From a virus, in IMG/VR virus record IMGVR_UViG_3300048768_000026, positions 1 through 22,090 of that record: DNA of 22,090 nt; one strand, written 5' to 3'. Of the stretch, positions 1 to 22,090 are shown in pieces (positions within the stretch are counted from its first letter, which is position 1; the number at the start of each line of letters is the position of its first letter). Below the pieces are notes generated by a model. It saw only the letters and a program-made list of their open reading frames with translations, had not been told where the DNA came from and did not search any database. The position numbers were made by a program, and so were the translations under genes.

Positions 1-86
1 CTGAGCGCTGTTGTAGTTGCCCGTGGTGTTGTAATAGAGGGCCGCGTACCCCTGAGCGCTGTTGTAGCTACCCGTCGTGTTGTAGG
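1..86 (-). repeat. 51-bp tandem repeat encoding YadA-like units
   Basis: The 16-mer ctgagcgctgttgtag occurs at 1-16 and again at 52-67, a spacing of 51 bp or 17 codons, and both copies are followed by cccgt.gtgttgta. On the coding (minus) strand each unit reads about YNSAQGYAALYYNTTG. Only about 1.7 units are inside the window and the array probably continues to the left. Confidence 0.7.
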
Positions 87-1578
87 ACCCACCCCCACCG
101 GAAAATGTATTACGCAGAGACGCTAGCTCTTGGTATAGTGCCTGAAACGATACGGCGCCGGTAGAATCTTTTCCTGTGTAAGAAAATGTCGAGATCGGAT
201 TAATTTGTTTAGCTGTAACTGCAATGGCCCCAACAAACGCCACTGTGGGCGTATATGTCAGTGAGGTTCCGTCAGCTCGCGGGGAGAAACTGTACATTGA
301 AGTTGCAGCGCTAGAAGAGGTGGAAGTCTGCGCTGTTCCAATCGCTCCCGTGATGGTTCCCCCACCGATAATAGATGTCATCACCAAGGTTCCGGTACAT
401 GACGCACTCCCCGTAGGCGTTCCTAATGTGCCCGTGGTAGGTGCAGAGGTAAACGCTGTGCCACGAGTAACTACGGCAATGGCGGCTGTGACAACTCCGG
501 AGGTAACAGTGATTGTGCCGGTCGCACCAGATCCGCCGCCTCCTGTAACGGTCAACGGATAGGTCCCTGTGCCCGTGCAGCTTAATCCACTAGCATAGGT
601 CATCCCCGTGACGCCTGCATTGTTAGTGATCGTCGCGCCGATCTGATAGAGGTTCCCACCGGTGAACCCCGTGCAGGTGAGCGGCGCTATCGTACCGGGT
701 GCAACGTAATTCGGATACGTGCCAGTCCATCCTGTCCCGCTGCATGTCCCACTGGTAGTTAGCTCCGAGCCGAGAGATGCGGAATCGGTTGTAGTGGCAC
801 CAAGGAAAATCTCATTCCCAGGGTTCGCTGCCGTGCCCACTGTTAACTGTGCTGATCCTGTGCGCGTAATTCCCGGCGCGTTTTGAAGATTCCCGCTACC
901 ATCGGCATACAAGATTGCGTTTGCCGTGGGGGAACCACCAATAGGATTACTGAGAGATAGGCCAAACCCGCAGGACTCCACCCCAGTAGAGTTCTTGGAA
1001 CACATCGTGCCTGATTTGGAATAAAACGCCGTAGTCCCAGCACTCGGCGTTGCGGGGGTGCTTTGGTCGGTGGATATAAAATTTGCACCTGTCCCGTGCA
1101 GCACCGTATTCCCCACCGATAGACTGCCCGTCGCAACCCCTCCCGCGGCACTCGGCACGATGGCCGGGGCTCTCCATTCGGTGCCGTCGTACCGTAGCGT
1201 TACCGGCACGGACCCAGAGAACACGGCCAGGGGTGGCGCCGCGCCTTCGTTGGTCTGGACGGCCTTCGCCCCGCACCCGACGTCCAGCGTCGGTGATGCA
1301 CCCGAGGTCACGTCGGGAGTCCACAGGACTGTCATCCCGCCCGCGCATGTACTGATCGGTTGCTGCGCAGTGCAGGCGTAGGCCGTGGCGGAGCCGCTGC
1401 TGCTGACGCAGGGGTTGCTCGCCAGGCTCGCTGGGACCGCGCCGTTGACTTTGGCGACGGTCGGGCTGGGGTAGGTTCCGCTGAGGTCTCCCGTAGCCGG
1501 GCCTGCCGGAGAACGTGAAGGGATCGGCTGCGCCACAGCCGCGCCCGCGAGAATCAAGATCGAGAAAAGTCGTTTCAT
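1..1578 (-). CDS. Secreted-type tail-fibre/adhesin-like protein, C-terminus cut by window edge
   Basis: The frame is open for 526 codons from the ATG at 1578 to the window edge without a stop. A strong Shine-Dalgarno (GAAGGAG, about 7 nt before ATG) supports the start. Residues 1-17 form a Sec signal peptide (MKRLFSILILAGAAVA, then Q). Next comes a GDLSGTYPSPTVAKVNG motif, which recurs in phage tail-fibre and host-specificity proteins. The middle is low-complexity Gly/Thr/Ser/Ala-rich beta-type sequence. The last visible part has 17-residue repeats of the type GYAALYYNTTGNYNSAQ, resembling YadA-head-like repeats of trimeric adhesins and phage fibres; such proteins often end in an S74 chaperone domain, which would lie outside. 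It is the last of three consecutive fibre-like genes. Role (receptor binding or surface adhesin) is inferred. The signal peptide is odd for a virion protein. Confidence 0.7.
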   Translation of the reverse strand, partial: MKRLFSILILAGAAVAQPIPSRSPAGPATGDLSGTYPSPTVAKVNGAVPASLASNPCVSSSGSATAYACTAQQPISTCAGGMTVLWTPDVTSGASPTLDVGCGAKAVQTNEGAAPPLAVFSGSVPVTLRYDGTEWRAPAIVPSAAGGVATGSLSVGNTVLHGTGANFISTDQSTPATPSAGTTAFYSKSGTMCSKNSTGVESCGFGLSLSNPIGGSPTANAILYADGSGNLQNAPGITRTGSAQLTVGTAANPGNEIFLGATTTDSASLGSELTTSGTCSGTGWTGTYPNYVAPGTIAPLTCTGFTGGNLYQIGATITNNAGVTGMTYASGLSCTGTGTYPLTVTGGGGSGATGTITVTSGVVTAAIAVVTRGTAFTSAPTTGTLGTPTGSASCTGTLVMTSIIGGGTITGAIGTAQTSTSSSAATSMYSFSPRADGTSLTYTPTVAFVGAIAVTAKQINPISTFSYTGKDSTGAVSFQALYQELASLRNTFSGGGGSYNTTGSYNSAQGYAALYYNTTGNYNSAQ

Positions 1579-1594: not shown

Positions 1595-2977
1595 CTACCT
1601 AGCTACGAAAGCAGCGTTTACCTGCCCAGACAGAACATTGATAACCCTCGGGGTATTTTCCACCAGCTCAAGGTCGCTTAGCTGGATGCAGTGCAGCCAG
1701 CCCGCGAAGATCCATGTATCTGATGCCGGAGAATTCGGGTCTCCCCATGCCTGGTCTGCGTCCGTGGTAATAAGCCCGGGTGATCCGTTGTCCGTGAAAT
1801 ACAGCCCGTACTGCTGCAATGCGGCCAGCGTCGGGAGAAACCATGCCGGGAAAGGATGGCCAGCGTTGTCCTTGTACCCGCACGTGGCAGAGCTGAAGGA
1901 CGCCTTAAGCCGAAATGTCGCTCCAAGGTAGACTCCGGACGATCCCGACCCGCCGGCCTGATGTGTGGCAGGCCACTGATACCCTGCCGTGGCCATCGCC
2001 GAGGTGAGCGCGAAACGGACGCCATGCAGAATGGGCTTTCCGGAGTAGACATCCGCGTGAGTCAAAGTAAGAGGCCAGATTGGCATACCAGCCGCGTCCG
2101 CCGAGGTTAGCCCGGTGGAATCGACCGTGTAGGGGATCAGCTTCGTTGCGCTTCGCAGCCGATAGTCAGACAGCGGCCAGATAGCCCCGTTCCCGATCTG
2201 ATAGGGCTGCGTCCCTGCCCCAAATGAGTACGTCTCGTACAGGAGACAGGTGTCTGTGTTGACCACTAGGACGTGATTGTCGCCTCCCGATGGCCCCCCC
2301 CCGGATACTAGCGCGGGCGCTCCGAAGTTGTACGAACTTAAAAACATGGACGGCGTAATCGGATAATTCCCGGAGTCGTGTTCTGGGTTGGGGCCGGCCC
2401 AATTGATGGCCGGAATTGGCGTTGCGCTGGTGGCCAGATTGATAGCCATCTCGGGGCTTGGCCCGAGGTTGCCCTGCCCGAGGGACGCTATTTTGGCAAC
2501 GCTGAACGAATCGACGGGCAGCCTGCTGACGGGCGAGTTGAGGTAGTAGTCTCCGGGGAATGCTGGGCAGGTTGAGCCGGGGATCGTCCGCGTAACCGGG
2601 ATTGTCACAGTGCCTCCTGTGCCGCCGGAGCCGCCGGAGGTACCTTGCTGACCCGCTGGCCCTTGCGGCCCTGCCGCGCCGGTCAATCCCTGTGGACCCG
2701 CAGGACCCGTAGGCCCTTGCGGTCCGGCTGCTCCCTGTGGCCCTGCTGGCCCTTGCGCACCAACCACTCCTGGCAATCCCTGCTGTCCAGGTGCCCCGGC
2801 CGGCCCCTGCGGCCCCGTGGCTCCCTGCGGGCCTTGAGCGCCCGGAGTACCCGCCCCTGTCAAACAAGCCAGCCCACCTCCTGGACACGTCGCCTGCATG
2901 GTGATTACGAGGCTTGCCGGCTGGGCTTGAGCGATTGGACACACAGCCAACGCGCACAGCAGAATTGTTAGTTTCAT
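1595..2977 (-). CDS. Collagen-like protein with Sec signal peptide
   Basis: This 460-aa protein starts at ATG 2977 behind an AAGGAAG Shine-Dalgarno. Residues 1-19 are a signal peptide ([19 protein letters not shown]). Residues about 41-120 are uninterrupted Gly-X-Y triplets ([13 protein letters not shown] type) rich in Pro, Gln and Ala, which is the collagen-like triple-helix pattern found in phage fibres and some bacterial surface proteins. A Gly/Ser hinge follows and then about 335 residues of a Trp/Tyr/Pro-rich domain with several Cys that I do not recognise; it is probably the distal binding head. The gene lies 16 nt upstream of the next fibre gene and 21 nt after the previous one, so the three are probably co-transcribed. 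A trimeric fibre is inferred from the collagen repeat. Whether it is on virions or exported by the host is open. Confidence 0.75.
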
Positions 2978-2998: not shown

Positions 2999-3997
2999 TT
3001 AGAATCCATCCCTGCCGCTGACATTACAGTATCCCGCGACTCCTGGCGAAGCAAATGTCGGGGAAATCGTTGTCAGTGTACCGCTGGAACTTGTCGAGCC
3101 GAGCGGGCCAAGTGAAAACGCGGCTGTCGGCGTGGTATAGGAGTAACATTGCCACATCACCGACTCTATGTGAGTCAGATTGAGGCTTCCTACGTTGATC
3201 GTGCAACTTGTGTCCGTCGAATTAAATGTGCAGTACAAGTGCGGCGCGGTATTGTCCGGGATGTCTGCGAGTTGAAGCGCGCGGAAAGTCGGCGCGCCCG
3301 GCCCCCCACTTACCGGGCCGATGAAAACGGCATTCTGCGCCGCAGCGGACAGCGTGAAACTCAGCGCCGGGTAGCTCGTTGCGTTCGCAACGGCCGCTGT
3401 GAACAGAGGGGTCAGGCTGCCCGTACTGAAGCTCTGCACTGCGCCTGGGATGCCCGGCGGCCCCGGCGTCGGGATGGAAACCACTGCGGGTTGCGAGAGA
3501 CGCACCTGATCGATTGTGACCGGACTGCTGCTCGTTGGAACCGCCCACTGCTCAGTCCAGCCCGCCGAATTGTTCCCGACGAACCATCGAACGGTGTACG
3601 TCGGGCTGATGTCGAGCCACGTAGCAGGGGACGATCCGGGCACGGTTCCGGTGTTGCCAACCCGCGCCAGCCAGATTTGGCCAGCGTATTGCACCCGCGT
3701 CCCACTTACGTAGGCCGTCGTGGATGACCATGCGGATCCGCTCGTGGACCCCTGCGTAGGGCAGGCGTCGGTAGGAGGCAGGTTGACCGCGAAATTGCCG
3801 CCGGAGAAACTCACGACATCCACCGTGCCGCCGATAAATGCGTTGCCGCCGGCAACGCAGGACGCGGAGATCGTAATCGTCGCCGTGCCGCTGGCACCGC
3901 CAGCAGCCGGGTCGAACGGCGTCGGGACGAACTGGGAAACGGTGGTAGTTGACGCCCACGCCGCGCCGGCCAGCAGGATCAACCACGGTCTCCGCAT
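2999..3997 (-). CDS. Tail-fibre-like protein with chitin-binding-like module and signal peptide
   Basis: A protein of 332 aa is called from ATG 3997, chosen because it sits one base after the preceding stop (TAACATG) and begins a Sec signal peptide (MRRPWLILLAGAAWA, cleaved before STTT); an in-frame start 12 codons upstream would bury this signal inside the previous gene. Around residues 100-140 the pattern AWSSTTAYVSGTRVQYAG...IWLA...PGSSPATW matches the ChtBD3/CBM5-12 carbohydrate-binding style. A short Pro-Gly tract (PTPGPPGIPG) follows, then PTFRALQLADIPD, a signature often seen in phage fibre and side-tail-fibre proteins. The C-terminus has Cys-containing beta-rich sequence. Likely a receptor- or polysaccharide-binding fibre component; the export signal is unusual. 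Confidence 0.7.
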   Translation of the reverse strand: MRRPWLILLAGAAWASTTTVSQFVPTPFDPAAGGASGTATITISASCVAGGNAFIGGTVDVVSFSGGNFAVNLPPTDACPTQGSTSGSAWSSTTAYVSGTRVQYAGQIWLARVGNTGTVPGSSPATWLDISPTYTVRWFVGNNSAGWTEQWAVPTSSSPVTIDQVRLSQPAVVSIPTPGPPGIPGAVQSFSTGSLTPLFTAAVANATSYPALSFTLSAAAQNAVFIGPVSGGPGAPTFRALQLADIPDNTAPHLYCTFNSTDTSCTINVGSLNLTHIESVMWQCYSYTTPTAAFSLGPLGSTSSSGTLTTISPTFASPGVAGYCNVSGRDGF

Positions 3998-3998
3998 G

Positions 3999-4316
3999 TT
4001 ACACCGCCCGCGCTGGGCAGGCCACGTCGCCACTCCGAATGATGACGTAAACCGTGTCGAGCGGGTAGTTCTCCGTCCCCTCGGAAACCGGCGGCGCGAA
4101 CTGCGCGTTGTTCACTGTCCCGATGGGGATACCGTTGGTAGCGGAGACGTTCGAATCGCCCACGCGCGAGATGCCAGTGGAACTCAGCATCACGATTTGC
4201 CACCATTTCACTAGCCAGTTGGCCTGGCTCACAGCTACCCCGCCAACCTTGAGCAGGGTGATGAGTTGGTGCTTTGCTCCGTCGCCCACAATATCGTCAA
4301 ATGCGGAAATCTTCAT
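3999..4316 (-). CDS. Small phage protein, probably virion-associated (105 aa)
   Basis: A 105-aa protein with an ATG at 4316. The pattern AVSQANWLVKWWQIVML..GISRVGDSNVSATNGIPIG......FAPPVSE....YPLDTVYVIIRSGD resembles small phage proteins carrying a VGDxxVSxxxGxPI motif and a Leu/Asp-I/V-Y-V-x(3)-GD end, found among tail-associated genes; this is from memory of the pattern only. It has no Shine-Dalgarno. Instead TAAAAT ends six bases before the ATG with a TTGCTA box 17 bp further upstream, suggesting a leaderless transcript. Its stop is one base from the next gene's ATG, so it leads the three-fibre operon. It is divergent from the plus-strand cassette at 4418. Confidence 0.6.
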   Translation of the reverse strand: MKISAFDDIVGDGAKHQLITLLKVGGVAVSQANWLVKWWQIVMLSSTGISRVGDSNVSATNGIPIGTVNNAQFAPPVSEGTENYPLDTVYVIIRSGDVACPARAV

Positions 4317-4322
4317 GCCCGC

Positions 4323-4351
4323 ATTTTACACCACAACGCAAACTCTAGCAA
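4323..4351 (-). promoter_or_regulatory. Leaderless-type promoter for the fibre operon
   Basis: On the minus strand TTGCTA (4351-4346), a 17-bp spacer, TAAAAT (4328-4323), six bases and then ATG (4316). The -10 matches 5/6 and the -35 4/6 of the sigma70 consensus. Transcription would begin at or next to the A of the start codon, which fits the missing Shine-Dalgarno of the gene. Confidence 0.5.
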
Positions 4352-4383
4352 AACCGGAATTCGCGTAGGTGTATGCTGTAGGC

Positions 4384-4411
4384 ATGACAAATACCAGTAA
4401 CCGTCTATAAT
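4384..4411 (+). promoter_or_regulatory. Leaderless-type promoter for the plus-strand gp10 cassette
   Basis: On the plus strand ATGACA (4384-4389), a 16-bp spacer, a perfect TATAAT (4406-4411), six bases and then ATG (4418). The -35 matches 5/6. The predicted start site coincides with the ATG. The imperfect inverted repeat ATGC-TGTAG-GCAT (4373-4385) touches the -35, and ATGGT-AA-ACCAT (4418-4429) covers the start codon; either could be an operator or a 5' hairpin. Confidence 0.55.
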
Positions 4412-4417
4412 CGAGGC

Positions 4418-4579
4418 ATGGTAAACCATAGCCAGGGTGCGCGGGGGGCTGGGCATGAAACCCGGCTCCCTCCTGGTGCGTTGGGACGCCACAATCTGCC
4501 AGGCCTCCCCGGACTTGCCCTCCAGGAGGATTACGTCACTGCGGGAGATCCGCAGGACCTGGCCCCAAAAACTCCATGA
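4418..4579 (+). CDS. Small protein upstream of gp10-like gene (53 aa)
   Basis: This 53-codon frame begins at the ATG six bases after a perfect TATAAT and ends at TGA 4577-4579, overlapping the gp10 start as ATGA, the same junction type used by genuine gene pairs here. The protein is Gly/Pro/Leu-rich at first (LPPGALGRHNLPGLPG) and ends with an acidic part (LQEDYVTAGDPQDLAPKTP). I do not recognise a family. In other phages the slot before gp10 often holds a head-closure or connector protein, but this one is far shorter than those. Promoter position and coupling make it likely to be translated; its function is unknown. It could also serve mainly as a translated leader for the downstream gene. 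Confidence 0.5.
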   Translation: MVNHSQGARGAGHETRLPPGALGRHNLPGLPGLALQEDYVTAGDPQDLAPKTP

Positions 4580-4986
4580 AGATCCGCGCCACCGCGACGT
4601 TCAGGCCCGGCAATTATGCCGCAGTCGAAGCGAAACTGCTGCCCCGGCTGATCGAGGGCGCGACAGTGGGCGCCAACATCGTGCTGGACATTTCCCAGGA
4701 AATGGTTCCGGTGGACACGGGAGAACTGAAGGGCTCTGGCCGGGTGAGCGTGGAGAAGCAGGGGACCGTCATCACCGGGTATATCGTTTACGGCGGAGAC
4801 GGCATTGATTATGCCCTATATGTAGAGGCGGGCACGGGCCGAAGAGGCGCAACTTCCGCCGGCTCAGGGCCATGGGAGTACAATCTGGCTTGGCCCGGCA
4901 TGGTCGCTGAGCCCTATATTAGGCCAGCCCTAGATATTGGGCGTCAGGACGTTCTGGACGCTTTCCGCGCGGCGTTGGGGCTCTGA
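4576..4986 (+). CDS. HK97 gp10-like head-tail joining/tail protein, opposite strand to its neighbours
   Basis: A 136-aa protein of the HK97 gp10-like family, whose members act at the neck/tail-completion stage of virion assembly. The hallmark VPVDTGELKGS lies at residues 44-54, followed by a beta-rich middle, YALYVEAGTGRRG around residues 79-92 and the C-terminal PYIRPALDIGRQDVLDAF helix; length is normal. ATG 4576 is used because no start codon lies between it and the upstream stop in this frame, and it overlaps the preceding gene as ATGA. It is one of only two plus-strand genes in the window, while every other structural gene runs leftward. Its 3' end overlaps the convergent HNH gene by 68 bp. 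It depends on its own promoter at 4384-4411. Confidence 0.8.
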   Translation: MKIRATATFRPGNYAAVEAKLLPRLIEGATVGANIVLDISQEMVPVDTGELKGSGRVSVEKQGTVITGYIVYGGDGIDYALYVEAGTGRRGATSAGSGPWEYNLAWPGMVAEPYIRPALDIGRQDVLDAFRAALGL

Positions 4987-5449
4987 GCGTGCCGTCCGGG
5001 AGGACGGTGTAGAGAACTCCCTTAATTTTCTTGCGCGTGCGCCGGGCCTCCAGGATTGGCCTACACTCCAGGCATTTACGGCCCCCTCCAAGGATGCGCG
5101 TATTCTCTGGTGTATATTCGTGGCCGCGTGGGCAATGCGTCTTGGCTCGCTCCCGCGCCCCGTTAACCATCCCCGATATTCCGCGTCGGACATTCTCGGC
5201 GTGGGTTACCAACTCCATGTGATCGGTGTTGACGCACGGGCGATACCTGCAAAGGTGATCCGGCTCCAGTCCTTCCGGGATCTGCCCGCGCTGGATCAAC
5301 CAAGCAGCGCGCGGCATTCGCACGTTTTTACCGTCGATCCTGAAGCTTCCGTATCCGTTTGTCAGGTACCCCACCCACTCCCAGCAGCCGTTTGGCAGGA
5401 CGCGGACGTGCGACATGAAGCGTTCGAGGGTAGAATTGAATTTGGGCAT
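4919..5449 (-). CDS. HNH endonuclease, homing-type (HNH_3-like)
   Basis: A 176-aa free-standing HNH nuclease with a strong Shine-Dalgarno (TGGAGGTG, 8 nt before ATG 5449). The N-terminus RF-(x)8-GCWEWVG(x)4-GYG is typical of this phage family. The HNH core is PDHLCRYRPCVNTDHMEL: D64-H65, N74 and H77 are the likely metal-binding and catalytic residues, followed by THAENVRRG. A second zinc-binding segment CPRGHEYTPENTR...CLEC (C106, H110, C126, C129) follows, and the C-terminus is basic. Such genes cut DNA at specific sites and spread themselves among related phages, often inserting beside head and packaging genes. Its 3' end overlaps the convergent gp10-like gene by 68 bp. The 71-bp gap upstream shows nothing beyond its ribosome site. 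Confidence 0.85.
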   Translation of the reverse strand: MPKFNSTLERFMSHVRVLPNGCWEWVGYLTNGYGSFRIDGKNVRMPRAAWLIQRGQIPEGLEPDHLCRYRPCVNTDHMELVTHAENVRRGISGMVNGARERAKTHCPRGHEYTPENTRILGGGRKCLECRPILEARRTRKKIKGVLYTVLPDGTLRAPTPRGKRPERPDAQYLGLA

Positions 5450-5520
5450 GTGAACACCTCCAGGGTTCGCGTGCTCTGCCGGACGGCGTGCAACCGCTGC
5501 CCGGCTCTTTTATTCTACCG

Positions 5521-6952: not shown

Positions 6953-8952
6953 CCGTGCAGCTCCATCGTGTCGGCCAGCCGCCGCAACGCCGCCGCCGCC
7001 TCTTTCTGCTGTTTCGGCGCGGGCGCGGCCGGCTCCGAAGGATTTCCGCCCGGTTGCGCCGTCGCTACAGCGTTTGGCGCTGGTTGTACTCCGCCCTGGG
7101 CTGGCAGTTTCGGCACCGGCGGCGGCAAAACCTCTTTCGTCCGGTCGGGGTCGTATTCCTTTTCGGGGTACTGTTTTTCGGCCTCTTCGTCGCCGTCTTC
7201 CACATCCAACTGCCGGTATAGCACCTTGACGCCTACCTTTTCGTCGATCCCCACTACCTGACCACCGTGATTTCCGAGCGTCATGGCTTGGACCGTCGCC
7301 CCGATCAGCGCCGGGACATCGCCCTCGCGGATCGCGGGCCACGTAACGCGGACCTCGATATCGTCACTTCGCTTGTTTTTGGCCTCCGCATAGCGCCACC
7401 CGCCTGACGGCAGGCGCACGCGCTCCGCCTCCCGGATGCGGATAGCACCGGGGTCCGGGCAGGATTCGCGGAGCTTGCCGCCGGGGGCTTTGAGCGATCT
7501 CTTGAGTACGTAGGTGAGCAAAACCACCAGGTCTTCCGTCCACTCTTCCTGGAGGCTTAGAAACACGGTTTCCGTGGGCCTGTCGAGGCTGGTCGCTGTC
7601 GCCAGATTGCCAGTGCTTACGTCGCCCAAAAAAGTCTCTGGAACGCCCATCACCATGCAGCACATCAATTTGTACTGCCGGACATCTTCGGGGCTGAACG
7701 TCGAGCCCTGGACTTTGAACGCCTCCATTGTCGTTCCCGGCCCCGAGATAAACGTGGACCCCGCGATGGCCGGAGGGTTGCTATCCCAGATCGGAGCGCC
7801 CGGCCCCACTTGGGTTTGCAGTTGTTGCTTGATGCCCTCGATAGCCGCCTGGCCGCCCTTGGTGGTGACGGTCGATGCGTATTGGCTGAGACTCTGCCGC
7901 ACGGAAGCGCAAGCCTCCAGAAAACGCCGCGCTTCTTTTGCCCAGTCGATCATTGGATAAATACGCGGGCATCCGAAGAGCCACTTGCCAACAGCGCCAA
8001 CCTTGCGGTGGTGCACAGGGCTGTCCCACATCACCGGATGGCCTTGGATCTCCGTCAACTTCGGCTCCGGCGGCCGGCACTCGGCGGGGTCGTAGTTCAG
8101 TGCCGGATACCAAGCCTCACGCGTCACTGTCGCAGATGCAGCGGTCTGTGCATCGTGGGCGCGCTGTGTCCACACACGGCGGTAGTAGCGCGGGAGATCT
8201 GCATCCTCCGGGTCCGTCCAAATGTCCTGTATCTCCGTGGCATCGATCATACGGACATCGACATCTCCCGTGCCGGGGTCGGAAAACATAGTGAAAAACA
8301 GATTCCCGTCATGGTCCTTGGATCGCTGCAAGGCCATCAGCGCAACGCGTCCCAGCACTTTCTGATTGCGCGCAAAAAAATCGTCGATCAAATTGTTCGC
8401 GTTCGGGTCATTCGTCGTGGCGTCGAAGCCGCGCGCAAACACGTACTGGGCGTTTACGTCTACTAGCCGCCGAACGATGGGATTTTTGATAGAATACAAC
8501 CGGCAAATCAGAATGATTTGCTGAATCCCCCAGCGAGAGAATTCGAGCCCCGAGTAATTGATCTCGCGCTGCCACCCGACGTTTTGCAGCAGCAGCTCGT
8601 ACATGCCATACGCGCCGGTGGGGCTGATCTCACCCACCGGGCCGGCCTCACGGAGACGTAGCGCCTCCCGGAGCGGCTTGCTGGCGTAGGCCATAGCATC
8701 CACATCGCCGGGTGCCCACGGGCCAGAGCCGCACATGGCCTGTGCTTCCACCATCTCAGCGAGGAATTGCTTTGCGCGATCTTGCTCTAGCGCCTGCCGA
8801 GCCTGTGATTCGGACAGCGCGATTGTCAACGCCCTGTTGGTTTCGCGCTCGCGCTGTAGGTTGGATTCGTAGCGCGATCCAGCGGCGAGCGCGGAGGAAA
8901 GGACTTGCGTCGGCTGCGGTCTGCGGAGCCACGACTCGAGGAAACGTCTCAT
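6949..8952 (-). CDS. Portal protein
   Basis: This 667-aa protein would form the portal ring at the capsid vertex through which DNA is packaged. Family features include an N-terminal helical segment, the GLEFSRWGIQQIILICRLY region leading into NPIVRRLVDVNAQYVFARG, a central WYPALNYDP/KWLFGCPRIYPMIDWAK region, then the LMCCMVMGVPETFLGD and ATATSLDRPTE motifs in the part that precedes the crown, and a C-terminal Pro/Ala/Gln-rich tail from about residue 600. It is longer than typical HK97-type portals (about 400-500 aa), mainly because of the N-terminal extension and the tail. There is no Shine-Dalgarno; the ATG is seven bases after the previous stop and six bases after TATAAT. It is separated from the terminase by the glycosyltransferase island, whereas portal and terminase are usually adjacent. 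Confidence 0.85.
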   Translation of the reverse strand: MRRFLESWLRRPQPTQVLSSALAAGSRYESNLQRERETNRALTIALSESQARQALEQDRAKQFLAEMVEAQAMCGSGPWAPGDVDAMAYASKPLREALRLREAGPVGEISPTGAYGMYELLLQNVGWQREINYSGLEFSRWGIQQIILICRLYSIKNPIVRRLVDVNAQYVFARGFDATTNDPNANNLIDDFFARNQKVLGRVALMALQRSKDHDGNLFFTMFSDPGTGDVDVRMIDATEIQDIWTDPEDADLPRYYRRVWTQRAHDAQTAASATVTREAWYPALNYDPAECRPPEPKLTEIQGHPVMWDSPVHHRKVGAVGKWLFGCPRIYPMIDWAKEARRFLEACASVRQSLSQYASTVTTKGGQAAIEGIKQQLQTQVGPGAPIWDSNPPAIAGSTFISGPGTTMEAFKVQGSTFSPEDVRQYKLMCCMVMGVPETFLGDVSTGNLATATSLDRPTETVFLSLQEEWTEDLVVLLTYVLKRSLKAPGGKLRESCPDPGAIRIREAERVRLPSGGWRYAEAKNKRSDDIEVRVTWPAIREGDVPALIGATVQAMTLGNHGGQVVGIDEKVGVKVLYRQLDVEDGDEEAEKQYPEKEYDPDRTKEVLPPPVPKLPAQGGVQPAPNAVATAQPGGNPSEPAAPAPKQQKEAAAALRRLADTMELHG

Positions 8953-8958
8953 GGCCCG

Positions 8959-8986
8959 ATTATACGCCCGGTAGCGGCGATGTCGT
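8959..8986 (-). promoter_or_regulatory. Possible leaderless-type promoter for the portal/head operon
   Basis: On the minus strand ACGACA (8986-8981), a 16-bp spacer, TATAAT (8964-8959), six bases and the portal ATG (8952). The -10 is perfect and the -35 matches 4/6. Spacing equals that of the plus-strand promoter at 4384-4411. Because the box overlaps the stop codon of the preceding gene (GTA TAA T), chance or simple translational reinitiation is a real alternative. Confidence 0.4.
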
Positions 8987-14489: not shown

Positions 14490-15957
14490 GCGCCTCCAAG
14501 TGCGCCTCGATGTCGGCGTCGATGGCAGCCAGGCCGCGACCCTCGCGCACGTGATCGAAGGTTGCGCCCTTGTGGTCTCCGTCGGCCAGTACTGCTTGCT
14601 TGCCGGTGAGCTTCTGCCAGCGGTGGACGATCACATCGCAATAGGCCGGGCTGATCTCGCAGCCGTAGCCCACGCGGCCCAGCACGTGGGCAGCGGCCAT
14701 CGTGGTTCCACTCCCGAGAAACGGATCGAAGACTATGTCGCCGGGATCGGAGAACGCTTTCACGAAGAACTCGACCAGCGCGCGTGGGAATGGCGCCGAG
14801 TGCGATCCCTGGCTGCTCTCCGTCTTCACCTCGATCACGTTGCTGGGGCGCGCTACTCCCCGATGTCGTCCGTCGCTATCACCGGAACCGGGCTTTCCGG
14901 CTGCATCTCCGCGCGCGCCGGTCCCCAGGAGACCGCTCCCGGAGTTTGATTTCGGGTTGTCGGGCGAGTAGTCGAAGCAATCGTCCGAGGCGTGACTCAC
15001 CGCCGCTGCGCGGAACTTGATCTGCTGCTGTTTGCAGAAGTGGTAGATCGGTTCGAACGCGTTCTTAAACCTGTTTCCCCAACCGCCCGGCACGCCGTTG
15101 TCGGTCTTGCGCCAGCAGAACTCATCCACGAACCGCCAGCACCACTGGCGACGGTGTGCCAGCACCAGATCCATCACGTACAGATTCCGCTCACCCTCGT
15201 CGGCGTGCGCCTTGATATTCAGAAGATAGGAGCCGTCGTCCGCAAGGATCGCTGCAATGTTCGCGGCCACGTCCCGATACCACTCGACATACTCCTCCGG
15301 CGGCACCGGCTTGAACCCGCTTGATGGATCGTACTCGCGCTGCGTCGCGTAGGGCGGCGAGGTCACGACCACGTTGGCCAGCGCATCGGCGAATAGCGCG
15401 CGAACGGTTTCCGCCTCGCGGCAGTCGCCGCAGATCAGGCGGTGGCCGCCCATCTGCCACAGGTCGCCCGGCTGGGTTACCGGCACTTCCGGCACGGGTG
15501 GAACGTCGTCCTCTGCCGGGTTCACGGATCGCGTGAATTCGTCGATCTCGCGCAGGCTGAAGCCGGTCGACTCGAGGTGGAAGTCCAGCGCCTTCAACTC
15601 TCCGAACTCGCGCGCCAGGAGATCCATGTCCCATTCGGCCTCGTCGTGGGTGCGATTGTCGGCCAGCCGCAGGCCGCGTATGGCCTCCGGCGAGAGATCC
15701 GCGGCGACATGTACCGGGACCTGCGGCAAGCCAGCCTGGCGGGCCGCCGCGCGTCGCAAGTGGCCAATTACGATGATTCCTGAATCGTCCACCACAAGCG
15801 GCTGGCGCCAACCGTAGGTCTGTATGCTGGCCGCGACTTTAGCGACCGCTTCCGGCTTCCACTTGCGGGCGTTCAGAGGGTAATCAACAGGCCTTTCCGT
15901 GGGCCACCACTCGATATCGAACGCGGGTTTTATGGCCGAAACCTTATCACGTGCCAT
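14470..15957 (-). CDS. ParB-like domain fused to a DNA methyltransferase
   Basis: This 495-aa protein combines a ParB/Srx-type N-domain (residues about 20-120; NARKW, IQTYGWRQPLVV, GHLRRAAA at 65-72, LADNRTHDEAEWD) with a beta-class DNA methyltransferase. The catalytic motif IV TSPPY is at 199-203, a region matching motif X is near SHSAPFP at 385-391, and the SAM-binding motif I FDPFLGSGTT is at 410-419. The SPPY form and the order IV before I suggest N4-cytosine or N6-adenine methylation. Such fusions are common in phages and probably protect phage DNA from restriction or alter gene control. No cognate nuclease is seen. ATG 15957 lies three bases after the preceding stop without a good ribosome site. 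Confidence 0.88.
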   Translation of the reverse strand: MARDKVSAIKPAFDIEWWPTERPVDYPLNARKWKPEAVAKVAASIQTYGWRQPLVVDDSGIIVIGHLRRAAARQAGLPQVPVHVAADLSPEAIRGLRLADNRTHDEAEWDMDLLAREFGELKALDFHLESTGFSLREIDEFTRSVNPAEDDVPPVPEVPVTQPGDLWQMGGHRLICGDCREAETVRALFADALANVVVTSPPYATQREYDPSSGFKPVPPEEYVEWYRDVAANIAAILADDGSYLLNIKAHADEGERNLYVMDLVLAHRRQWCWRFVDEFCWRKTDNGVPGGWGNRFKNAFEPIYHFCKQQQIKFRAAAVSHASDDCFDYSPDNPKSNSGSGLLGTGARGDAAGKPGSGDSDGRHRGVARPSNVIEVKTESSQGSHSAPFPRALVEFFVKAFSDPGDIVFDPFLGSGTTMAAAHVLGRVGYGCEISPAYCDVIVHRWQKLTGKQAVLADGDHKGATFDHVREGRGLAAIDADIEAHLEAHGVPRL

Positions 15958-15960
15958 CGG

Positions 15961-16290
15961 CTATATCGTACCGCGAAATATGCCCACACCGCTTTTCTGC
16001 ATGGAATCAAACTCCGCTTCGGCGCGCGCCACCGCGTCAAGCTGCGCCTTCCGGAAGGCATCGTGGGCCAGCGCGAACGCGGAGAGCTTGTCGTACTGGC
16101 CGGGGAGAGCGCCGTATTGAAGGTCCTCCAAAGACTCCAATATTTCCGATGCGGGTAGCCCAATATCCATATGCAGCCAATGCCTCTCCATCGCGGATTT
16201 CAGTTCACAAAAGGCAGATTTTAGTCGTATTGCTGCGGCCTCCACTTCGGGCCGGTTCTTCTTCGCTTCGTTCCAGAATTCCTTCGTCAT
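15961..16290 (-). CDS. Helical protein of unknown function (109 aa)
   Basis: ATG 16290 has a GAGGTG ribosome site and overlaps the previous stop as ATGA. The protein is mostly helical and charged: FWNEAKKNRPEVEAAAIRLK, LKSAMERHWLHMDIG, then EILESLEDLQYGALPGQYD and FALAHDAFRKAQLDAVARAEAEFDSM. No cysteines form a metal site and there is no membrane segment. I recognise no family. It lies between a zinc-ribbon protein and the ParB-methyltransferase fusion, in a run of small accessory genes. Confidence 0.6.
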   Translation of the reverse strand: MTKEFWNEAKKNRPEVEAAAIRLKSAFCELKSAMERHWLHMDIGLPASEILESLEDLQYGALPGQYDKLSAFALAHDAFRKAQLDAVARAEAEFDSMQKSGVGIFRGTI

Positions 16291-21886: not shown

Positions 21887-22090
21887 TTACGCTCTGCCGT
21901 CGCCGCTGCCGTAGCCGCTGCCTCTGCCGTAGCCGCTGCCTCTGCCGTAGCCGCTGCCGTCGCCGCTGCCGTAGCCGCTGCCGTCGCCGCTGCCGCTGCC
22001 GCTGCCGCTGCCGTCGCCGCTGCCGTCGCCGCTGCCGCTGCCGTCGCCGCTGCCGTCGCCGCTGCCGTAGCCGGTGCCGCTGCCTCTGCC
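21887..22090 (-). CDS. C-terminus of a Gly-Ser-rich repeat protein, cut by window edge
   Basis: From the right edge a minus-strand frame of 67 codons runs to tandem TAA stops (21889-21884). It reads Gly at every second position with Ser, Asp, Tyr, Arg or Thr between (GSGDGSGYGSGRG style) and ends DGRA. Glycine tails of this kind occur at the ends of some phage proteins of unknown function. The N-terminal domain lies outside, so no function can be assigned. The other two frames would give poly-Ala/Val/Thr or Arg/Gln/Arg-type sequence; the Gly frame is chosen because it ends properly just before the next gene. Confidence 0.55.
   Translation of the reverse strand, partial: GRGSGTGYGSGDGSGDGSGSGDGSGDGSGSGSGSGDGSGYGSGDGSGYGRGSGYGRGSGYGSGDGRA
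21891..22090. repeat. Hexanucleotide-type tandem repeat (GCCGCT/GCCGTC/GCCGTA family)
   Basis: About 200 bp, continuing past the window end, consist of 3-bp units gcc alternating with gct, gtc, gta, tct or ggt, mostly as 6- and 12-bp periods. On the minus strand it encodes Gly alternating with Ser/Asp/Tyr/Arg. Such an array is prone to slippage in 6-bp steps, which keeps the frame. It also marks the end of the sequence, so copy number may be an assembly artefact. Confidence 0.85.

Follow-up and report, generated by a model that had tools for sequence, protein, structure and literature searches.

The window, by which we mean the whole stretch of DNA analysed, is a 22,090-base record of an uncultured soil phage in which nearly all genes lie on the minus strand. 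These include a terminase gene, glycosyltransferase-like genes (so called from their translations) and the genes for the portal protein, a Mu-F-like head protein and an HNH endonuclease. Beyond the last of these comes a plus-strand gene for a gp10-like tail completion or neck protein (4576-4986; PHROG 5, E 8.7e-17) and then four minus-strand genes, among them that of a collagen-like fibre protein. The two strands part at a gap of 101 bp, with a small gene, p4, on one side and the gp10 side on the other; gene content and family scans both support the first-pass annotation in assigning fibre genes to one side and a gp10 cassette to the other. A low-complexity repeat with several open frames occupies the window end (21887-22090), and no tRNA genes were found in the window or in the nine relatives searched.

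The fibre operon begins with p4 (3999-4316, minus strand; 105 aa), which has no Pfam or PHROGs family and is predicted to adopt a small beta fold (pLDDT 88). Its fold matches are weak: the four top-scoring ones (E 1.6e-4 to 5.3e-4) are all uncharacterised viral proteins, and nothing in the PDB fell below 0.001. For the present we leave it named a putative small beta protein. Directly after its stop comes the ATG (3997) of p3 (2999-3997, minus strand), a fibre-like protein with a weak CBM5/12 match, followed by the collagen-repeat tail fibre protein (1595-2977, minus strand) and by the last gene of the operon (1-1578, minus strand), which is cut by the window edge; the latter two have SD-like starts. 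Signal-peptide-like N-terminal stretches, which are unexpected for virion proteins, occur on the fibre-operon proteins at 1-1578, 1595-2977 and 2999-3997, as well as at 15584 of the related locus L014 (e.g. MKRLFSILILAGAAVAQ).

On the plus strand the gap is followed by a candidate coding ORF of 53 aa (4418-4579), predicted to be leaderless, for which family profile scans found no protein family. Its TGA overlaps the ATG of gp10 (ATGA); gp10 itself lacks an SD at its start and is probably translated by coupling to the 53-aa ORF. The HNH endonuclease gene (4919-5449) runs towards gp10, with which it shares 68 bp at the gp10 3' end, and was not found at the corresponding place in the relatives L005, L006 or L031. 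In the window (4576-4986), L005, L006, L007 and L014 the gp10-like neck gene and the head genes are on opposite strands, whereas in L010, L012 and L019-L023 they share one, which points to an inversion within the block of structural genes.

Examination of the gap reveals a -10 box on each strand. The minus-strand box TAAAAT (4323-4328) is separated by six bases (4317-4322) from the ATG of p4 (4316-4314) and, by a 17-bp spacer, from a -35-like box, TTGCTA (4346-4351). The plus-strand box TATAAT (4406-4411) lies six bases (4412-4417) before the ATG of the 53-aa ORF at 4418, with the -35-like box ATGACA (4384-4389) at a 16-bp spacer. The start codons at 4316 and 4418 are thus 101 bp apart and the two -10 boxes, which neither overlap nor abut, 77 bp apart. 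A promoter scan of 3500-5500 returned these two sites and no others, with 11/12 and 9/12 matches, as against 0.5 in shuffles, so that the boxes and spacings described earlier are borne out by direct reading and by the scan. A second plus-strand match, TATGCT-N6-ATG (4372-4386), opens an 8-codon ORF that stops inside TATAAT and is possibly due to chance. The ATG at 4316 is preceded by no SD, and the GAGG one base from the ATG at 4418 is judged too close to serve as one; the claim that neither gene has an SD therefore stands, while the accompanying claim that most window genes have one was too strong, since an SD-like motif within 20 bases precedes 13 of 30 other start candidates chosen by hand. 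Both sides thus carry a TANNNT ending six bases before the start and no SD at a working distance, and the predicted transcription start on either strand is the A of the ATG (4316 minus, 4418 plus). In dinucleotide shuffles of the gap, TATAAT with at most one mismatch stands at this distance (d=6) on both sides with a frequency of 1.5e-5, and TANNNT with a frequency of 5.5e-4, both without correction for the choice of place. The same signal is found elsewhere in the window at two starts absent from the first-pass annotation: TATAAT (8959-8964, minus strand) lies six bases before the portal ATG at 8952 (TATAAT-CGGGCC-ATG), and TACGAT (15965-15970, minus strand) lies seven bases before the ParB/methylase ATG at 15957.

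Relatives were gathered by a portal protein search, which gave 23 loci including a contig identical to the window over 4000-5000, and further ones were added through gp10 and p4 alignments. The nearest copy of the window (L002-L004) is uninformative on conservation, being identical over 4000-5000, and no phage DNA records similar to the promoter region were found. The family set is non-redundant and comprises 45 loci, each with a relative of the portal, MuF or p4 (498 kb; 13,930 ATGs), and the 28 remaining, distant contigs serve for comparison. When TANNNT hexamers within one mismatch of TATAAT were counted before ATGs, the family loci had 38 at d=6 and 28 at d=7, against a background (mean at d=10-29) of 9.45 (Poisson P 2.3e-12 and 7.8e-7, respectively). 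The distant contigs had 3 at d=6 and 12 at d=7 against 6.4 (P 0.03 at d=7). An extended -10 TGn accompanies 10 of 68 leaderless-like sites and none of 29 control sites, and -35 matches of 4 or more occur at 23/68 and 6/29, respectively.

The p4 family displays the signal most directly. Among 23 p4 starts TANNNT stands at d=6 in 15, at d=7 in two and at d=8 in two, with 0-2 at other offsets; the four starts with no signal at d 6-8 are in L011, L050, L075 and L085. These 23 were picked from 32 rows by dropping the duplicates L016, L079 and L082 and the rows with uncertain starts (L010, the second of L012, L060, L063, L064 and L070). Among the rows with uncertain starts, L060, L063 and L070 show a box before a nearby start at d=7 and L064 at d=5, while L010 and the second of L012 show none. 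The closest independent p4 relative, L128, aligns to the window promoter without gaps and retains TTGC(T/C)A, the 17-bp distance, TAAA(A/C)T, GCGGGC and the ATG, whereas the spacer has changed; its boxes, TTGCCA and TAAACT, differ by one base in the -10, which is still TANNNT. Thus, the absence of the boxes from relatives of the same gene order, which had been named as the outcome that would count against leaderless promoters, is the opposite of what was found.

The gp10 side is less conserved than the p4 side, because the signal is seen in 15 of 74 gp10 rows only, many of the 74 being distant. A TANNNT-N6-start precedes gp10 itself in L005, L006, L031, L036 and L110, and plus-side ORFs in L006, L117 and L128; gp10 is started otherwise in L014, L029, L111, L113, L117 and L128. 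Between p4 and gp10 a tryptophan-rich membrane-like protein of 53-55 aa, not seen in the window, is encoded in L006 (14923), L111, L117 and L128 (2868); its start has the form box-N6-ATG in all of these but L111.

We then define a double-leaderless divergent pair as two starts of ORFs of at least 40 aa, 15-150 bp apart, each with TANNNT (at most two mismatches to TATAAT) at d 6/7. By this rule 24 pairs were found in 18 of the 45 family loci, against 0 or 1 for each of ten control spacings (10/11 to 28/29) and two in the 28 other contigs, both in one locus. Together with the family-wide peak and the p4 starts, this excess supports the earlier reading of the gap as divergent leaderless promoters. 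The pairs recur at fixed places, namely between p4 and either gp10 or a small ORF, between the portal and an upstream gene, and between the head protease or its neighbour and a CTKC protein. At the first of these the starts are 101 bp apart in the window, 102 in L031, 59 in L036, 23 in L079, 23 and 133 in L006 and 132 in L128. At the second they are 20 bp apart in L063 and 29 in L076, and at d=8 also 50 in L010 and 40 in L023 (d=8 pairs being taken from the hand-grouped first locus set only). The recurring pair of a head-maturation-protease-like gene or its neighbour with a CTKC (zinc-finger-like) protein of about 100 aa has 67-69 bp between leaderless-like starts (L005 12321-12389; L029 1738-1806; L031 2299-2368; L111 3599-3669; L128 3834-3902; also L113, L115 and L117). 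The two pair proteins of L111 and the two of L063 were scanned for family, and the others received their names from resemblances at the N-terminus. In the closest pairs the two -10 boxes run into each other: they overlap by TA in L006 and L079 (ATGATANCAT), overlap by four bases in L063 (ATTATAAT) and lie one base apart in L029 (ATTATACTATAAT). A scan of viral contigs for the symmetric pattern CAT-N6-ATTATAAT-N6-ATG, with N10 as control, says nothing for pairs: among the matches listed, both ORFs reach at least 60 aa at 3/88 versus 2/114 control places. At least one ORF does so at 69/88 versus 15/114 among the matches listed, an excess that may be swollen by related prophages.

Among genomes sampled one per species, a single relative was found, a 3.9-kb contig in a bin of Acidobacteriia, and Acidobacteriota is thus the likely host phylum, through a weak link via one short binned contig. 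In 21 genomes around this bin TATAAT-N6/7-ATG occurs 315 times versus 152 for N15/16, and is the commoner in 19 of them; leaderless genes have been reported in 3/3 Acidobacteria, at 13.3% on average (PMC3160421, Table 2, in the part consulted). Host phylum alone does not explain the signal, because no peak is seen in Tunturi_1 and Tunturi_4, two cultured phages of Acidobacteriota, with TANNNT at d 6/7 in 1/65 and 2/63 annotated starts within their first 50 kb. Hence, the leaderless style seems to be a trait of this phage lineage rather than one common to phages of the host phylum.

In light of the above observations, we consider it quite probable that two distinct promoters of sigma-70 type diverge from within the gap and give rise to leaderless mRNAs, as one case of a family-wide style. 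The boxes, their spacing, their enrichment over controls and their conservation in relatives are observed, and we infer from there that host RNA polymerase uses the boxes, where precisely transcription begins and that translation is leaderless; the Acidobacteriota host is likewise inferred. With a sigma-70-type host polymerase, each mRNA would have the A of its ATG as first nucleotide, and the ribosome would initiate at this 5'-terminal AUG with no Shine-Dalgarno. The minus-strand mRNA would carry p4 followed by the fibre genes; on the plus-strand mRNA ribosomes would first translate the 53-aa ORF and then gp10 by ATGA coupling, which is the weakest step of the proposed mechanism. Across the family, leaderless starts would stand at the heads of transcription units, with back-to-back leaderless promoters where units diverge, and in some relatives both promoters would be fused into one element with 20-29 bp between start codons.

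The best surviving alternative, which is possible though distinctly the less favoured, is that the mRNAs are short-leadered rather than strictly leaderless, with start points 1-8 bases around the ATG and a need for an unstructured 5' end. The spread of the family peak over d=6, d=7 and weakly d=8, which shifts the predicted start by a base or two, would fit this, but d=6 is the mode, at 15 of 23 in the p4 family. A doubtful further variant holds that only the p4 side is leaderless, the plus-strand TATAAT serving gp10 through an untranslated leader of 158 nt with the 53-aa ORF left unmade. The ORF has no family, and L128 differs at the plus side, where it has no box in the place of the window's TATAAT. 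The window leader could form a strong fold, but one hardly beyond shuffles (z -0.60 and -1.48). Against this variant, the ORF ends in ATGA at a gp10 gene without an SD, and the TANNNT-N6-starts of relatives precede both plus-side ORFs and gp10. Conserved RNA structure in the plus-side leader was itself rejected: among stretches picked by eye and unaligned, L006 (z -2.09), L031 (-2.51) and L111 (-3.40) fold better than shuffles, whereas L128 (0.06) and L117 (1.37) do not, and no Rfam family matched in the window, L117, L128 or the L111 region.

Much more improbable is the compact two-way switch of the first-pass annotation, in which a repressor or activator on palindromes would toggle fibre against gp10 expression. 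The inverted repeats invoked for it do overlap promoter and start (ATGC-N5-GCAT at 4373-4385; ATGGT-AA-ACCAT at 4418-4429), and promoters and start codons do lie together. However, inverted repeats are no commoner than expected (four-base, 4 against 4.5; five-base, 1 against 1.05), a chance level at which we reject the palindromes as operators, and they were not seen in L128. No regulator was identified among the ten window proteins scanned, and with both units encoding structural proteins there would seem to be no reason to oppose them. In favour of a switch, the rule given for bidirectional promoters of E. coli in the available part of PMC12825309 would bar overlapping -10 boxes, as in L006 and L079, from firing simultaneously in the two directions. 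Competition between directions is plausible only in relatives with such boxes; because its boxes are 77 bp apart, the window has two separate promoters and not one mutually exclusive site. Mere chance, with AT-rich hexamers happening to lie close to ATGs although the genome is GC-rich, is hardly credible given the two-sided shuffle frequency, the family-wide peak, the excess of pairs and the L128 footprint, even if one TANNNT at a given position is no great rarity (2-3% per side in the gap shuffles).

Comparison with known systems, as far as the consulted parts of the reports describe them, points to likenesses with three. The TA-led (leaderless) bacterial genes of Zheng et al. 2011, which occur in Acidobacteria among others, have TANNNT about 12 bases before the start, counted from the first T, and no SD, as here; they were described for cellular genomes (PMC3160421), while the present candidates occur in a phage family, where divergent unit heads are a common site. 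Bidirectional promoters of E. coli share a -10, with common start-point distances of 18, 10 or 23 bp (PMC12825309). The shared -10 is matched by L006, L079 and L063, and the opposed boxes sharing TA with 23 bp between start codons in L006 and L079/L081/L082 come near the 23-bp class of Warman/Grainger. The window pair differs in sharing no -10, and the relatives differ in that the start codons would fall on both start points and leave no room for ribosome sites. In the lysG-lysE pair of M. tuberculosis the divergent genes are 108 bp apart, with overlapping promoters and a leaderless P2-lysE transcript (PMC5648196), a likeness to the distance and the predicted leaderless transcripts of the window. 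Unlike the window, this non-phage pair is regulated by LysG via an inverted repeat and has one side reported as leaderless (PMC5648196); no conserved inverted repeat beyond chance was found here. Within the portions covered of the literature on leaderless, divergent and bidirectional transcription, neither phages with paired leaderless promoters nor a phage family built on leaderless genes were found.

We further propose, tentatively and with somewhat less than even confidence, that this soil-phage lineage uses the back-to-back leaderless promoter as a standard start for divergent units, with spacings of 20-29, 59-71 and about 90-133 bp grading from mutually exclusive to independent firing. 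To our knowledge, leaderless phage genes have usually been described singly, and we know of no two-way gene starts smaller than the 20-29 bp pairs. If the proposal is true, a single element of 20-30 bp would comprise two promoters and two translation starts, and a two-way gene start could not be packed more tightly. As the signal recurs at the heads of structural units, with divergent pairs common, the -10 box could serve to call start codons and would bring to light small genes missed by SD-based gene finders. The pairs of graded spacing would furthermore offer a natural series for relating promoter overlap to two-way firing.
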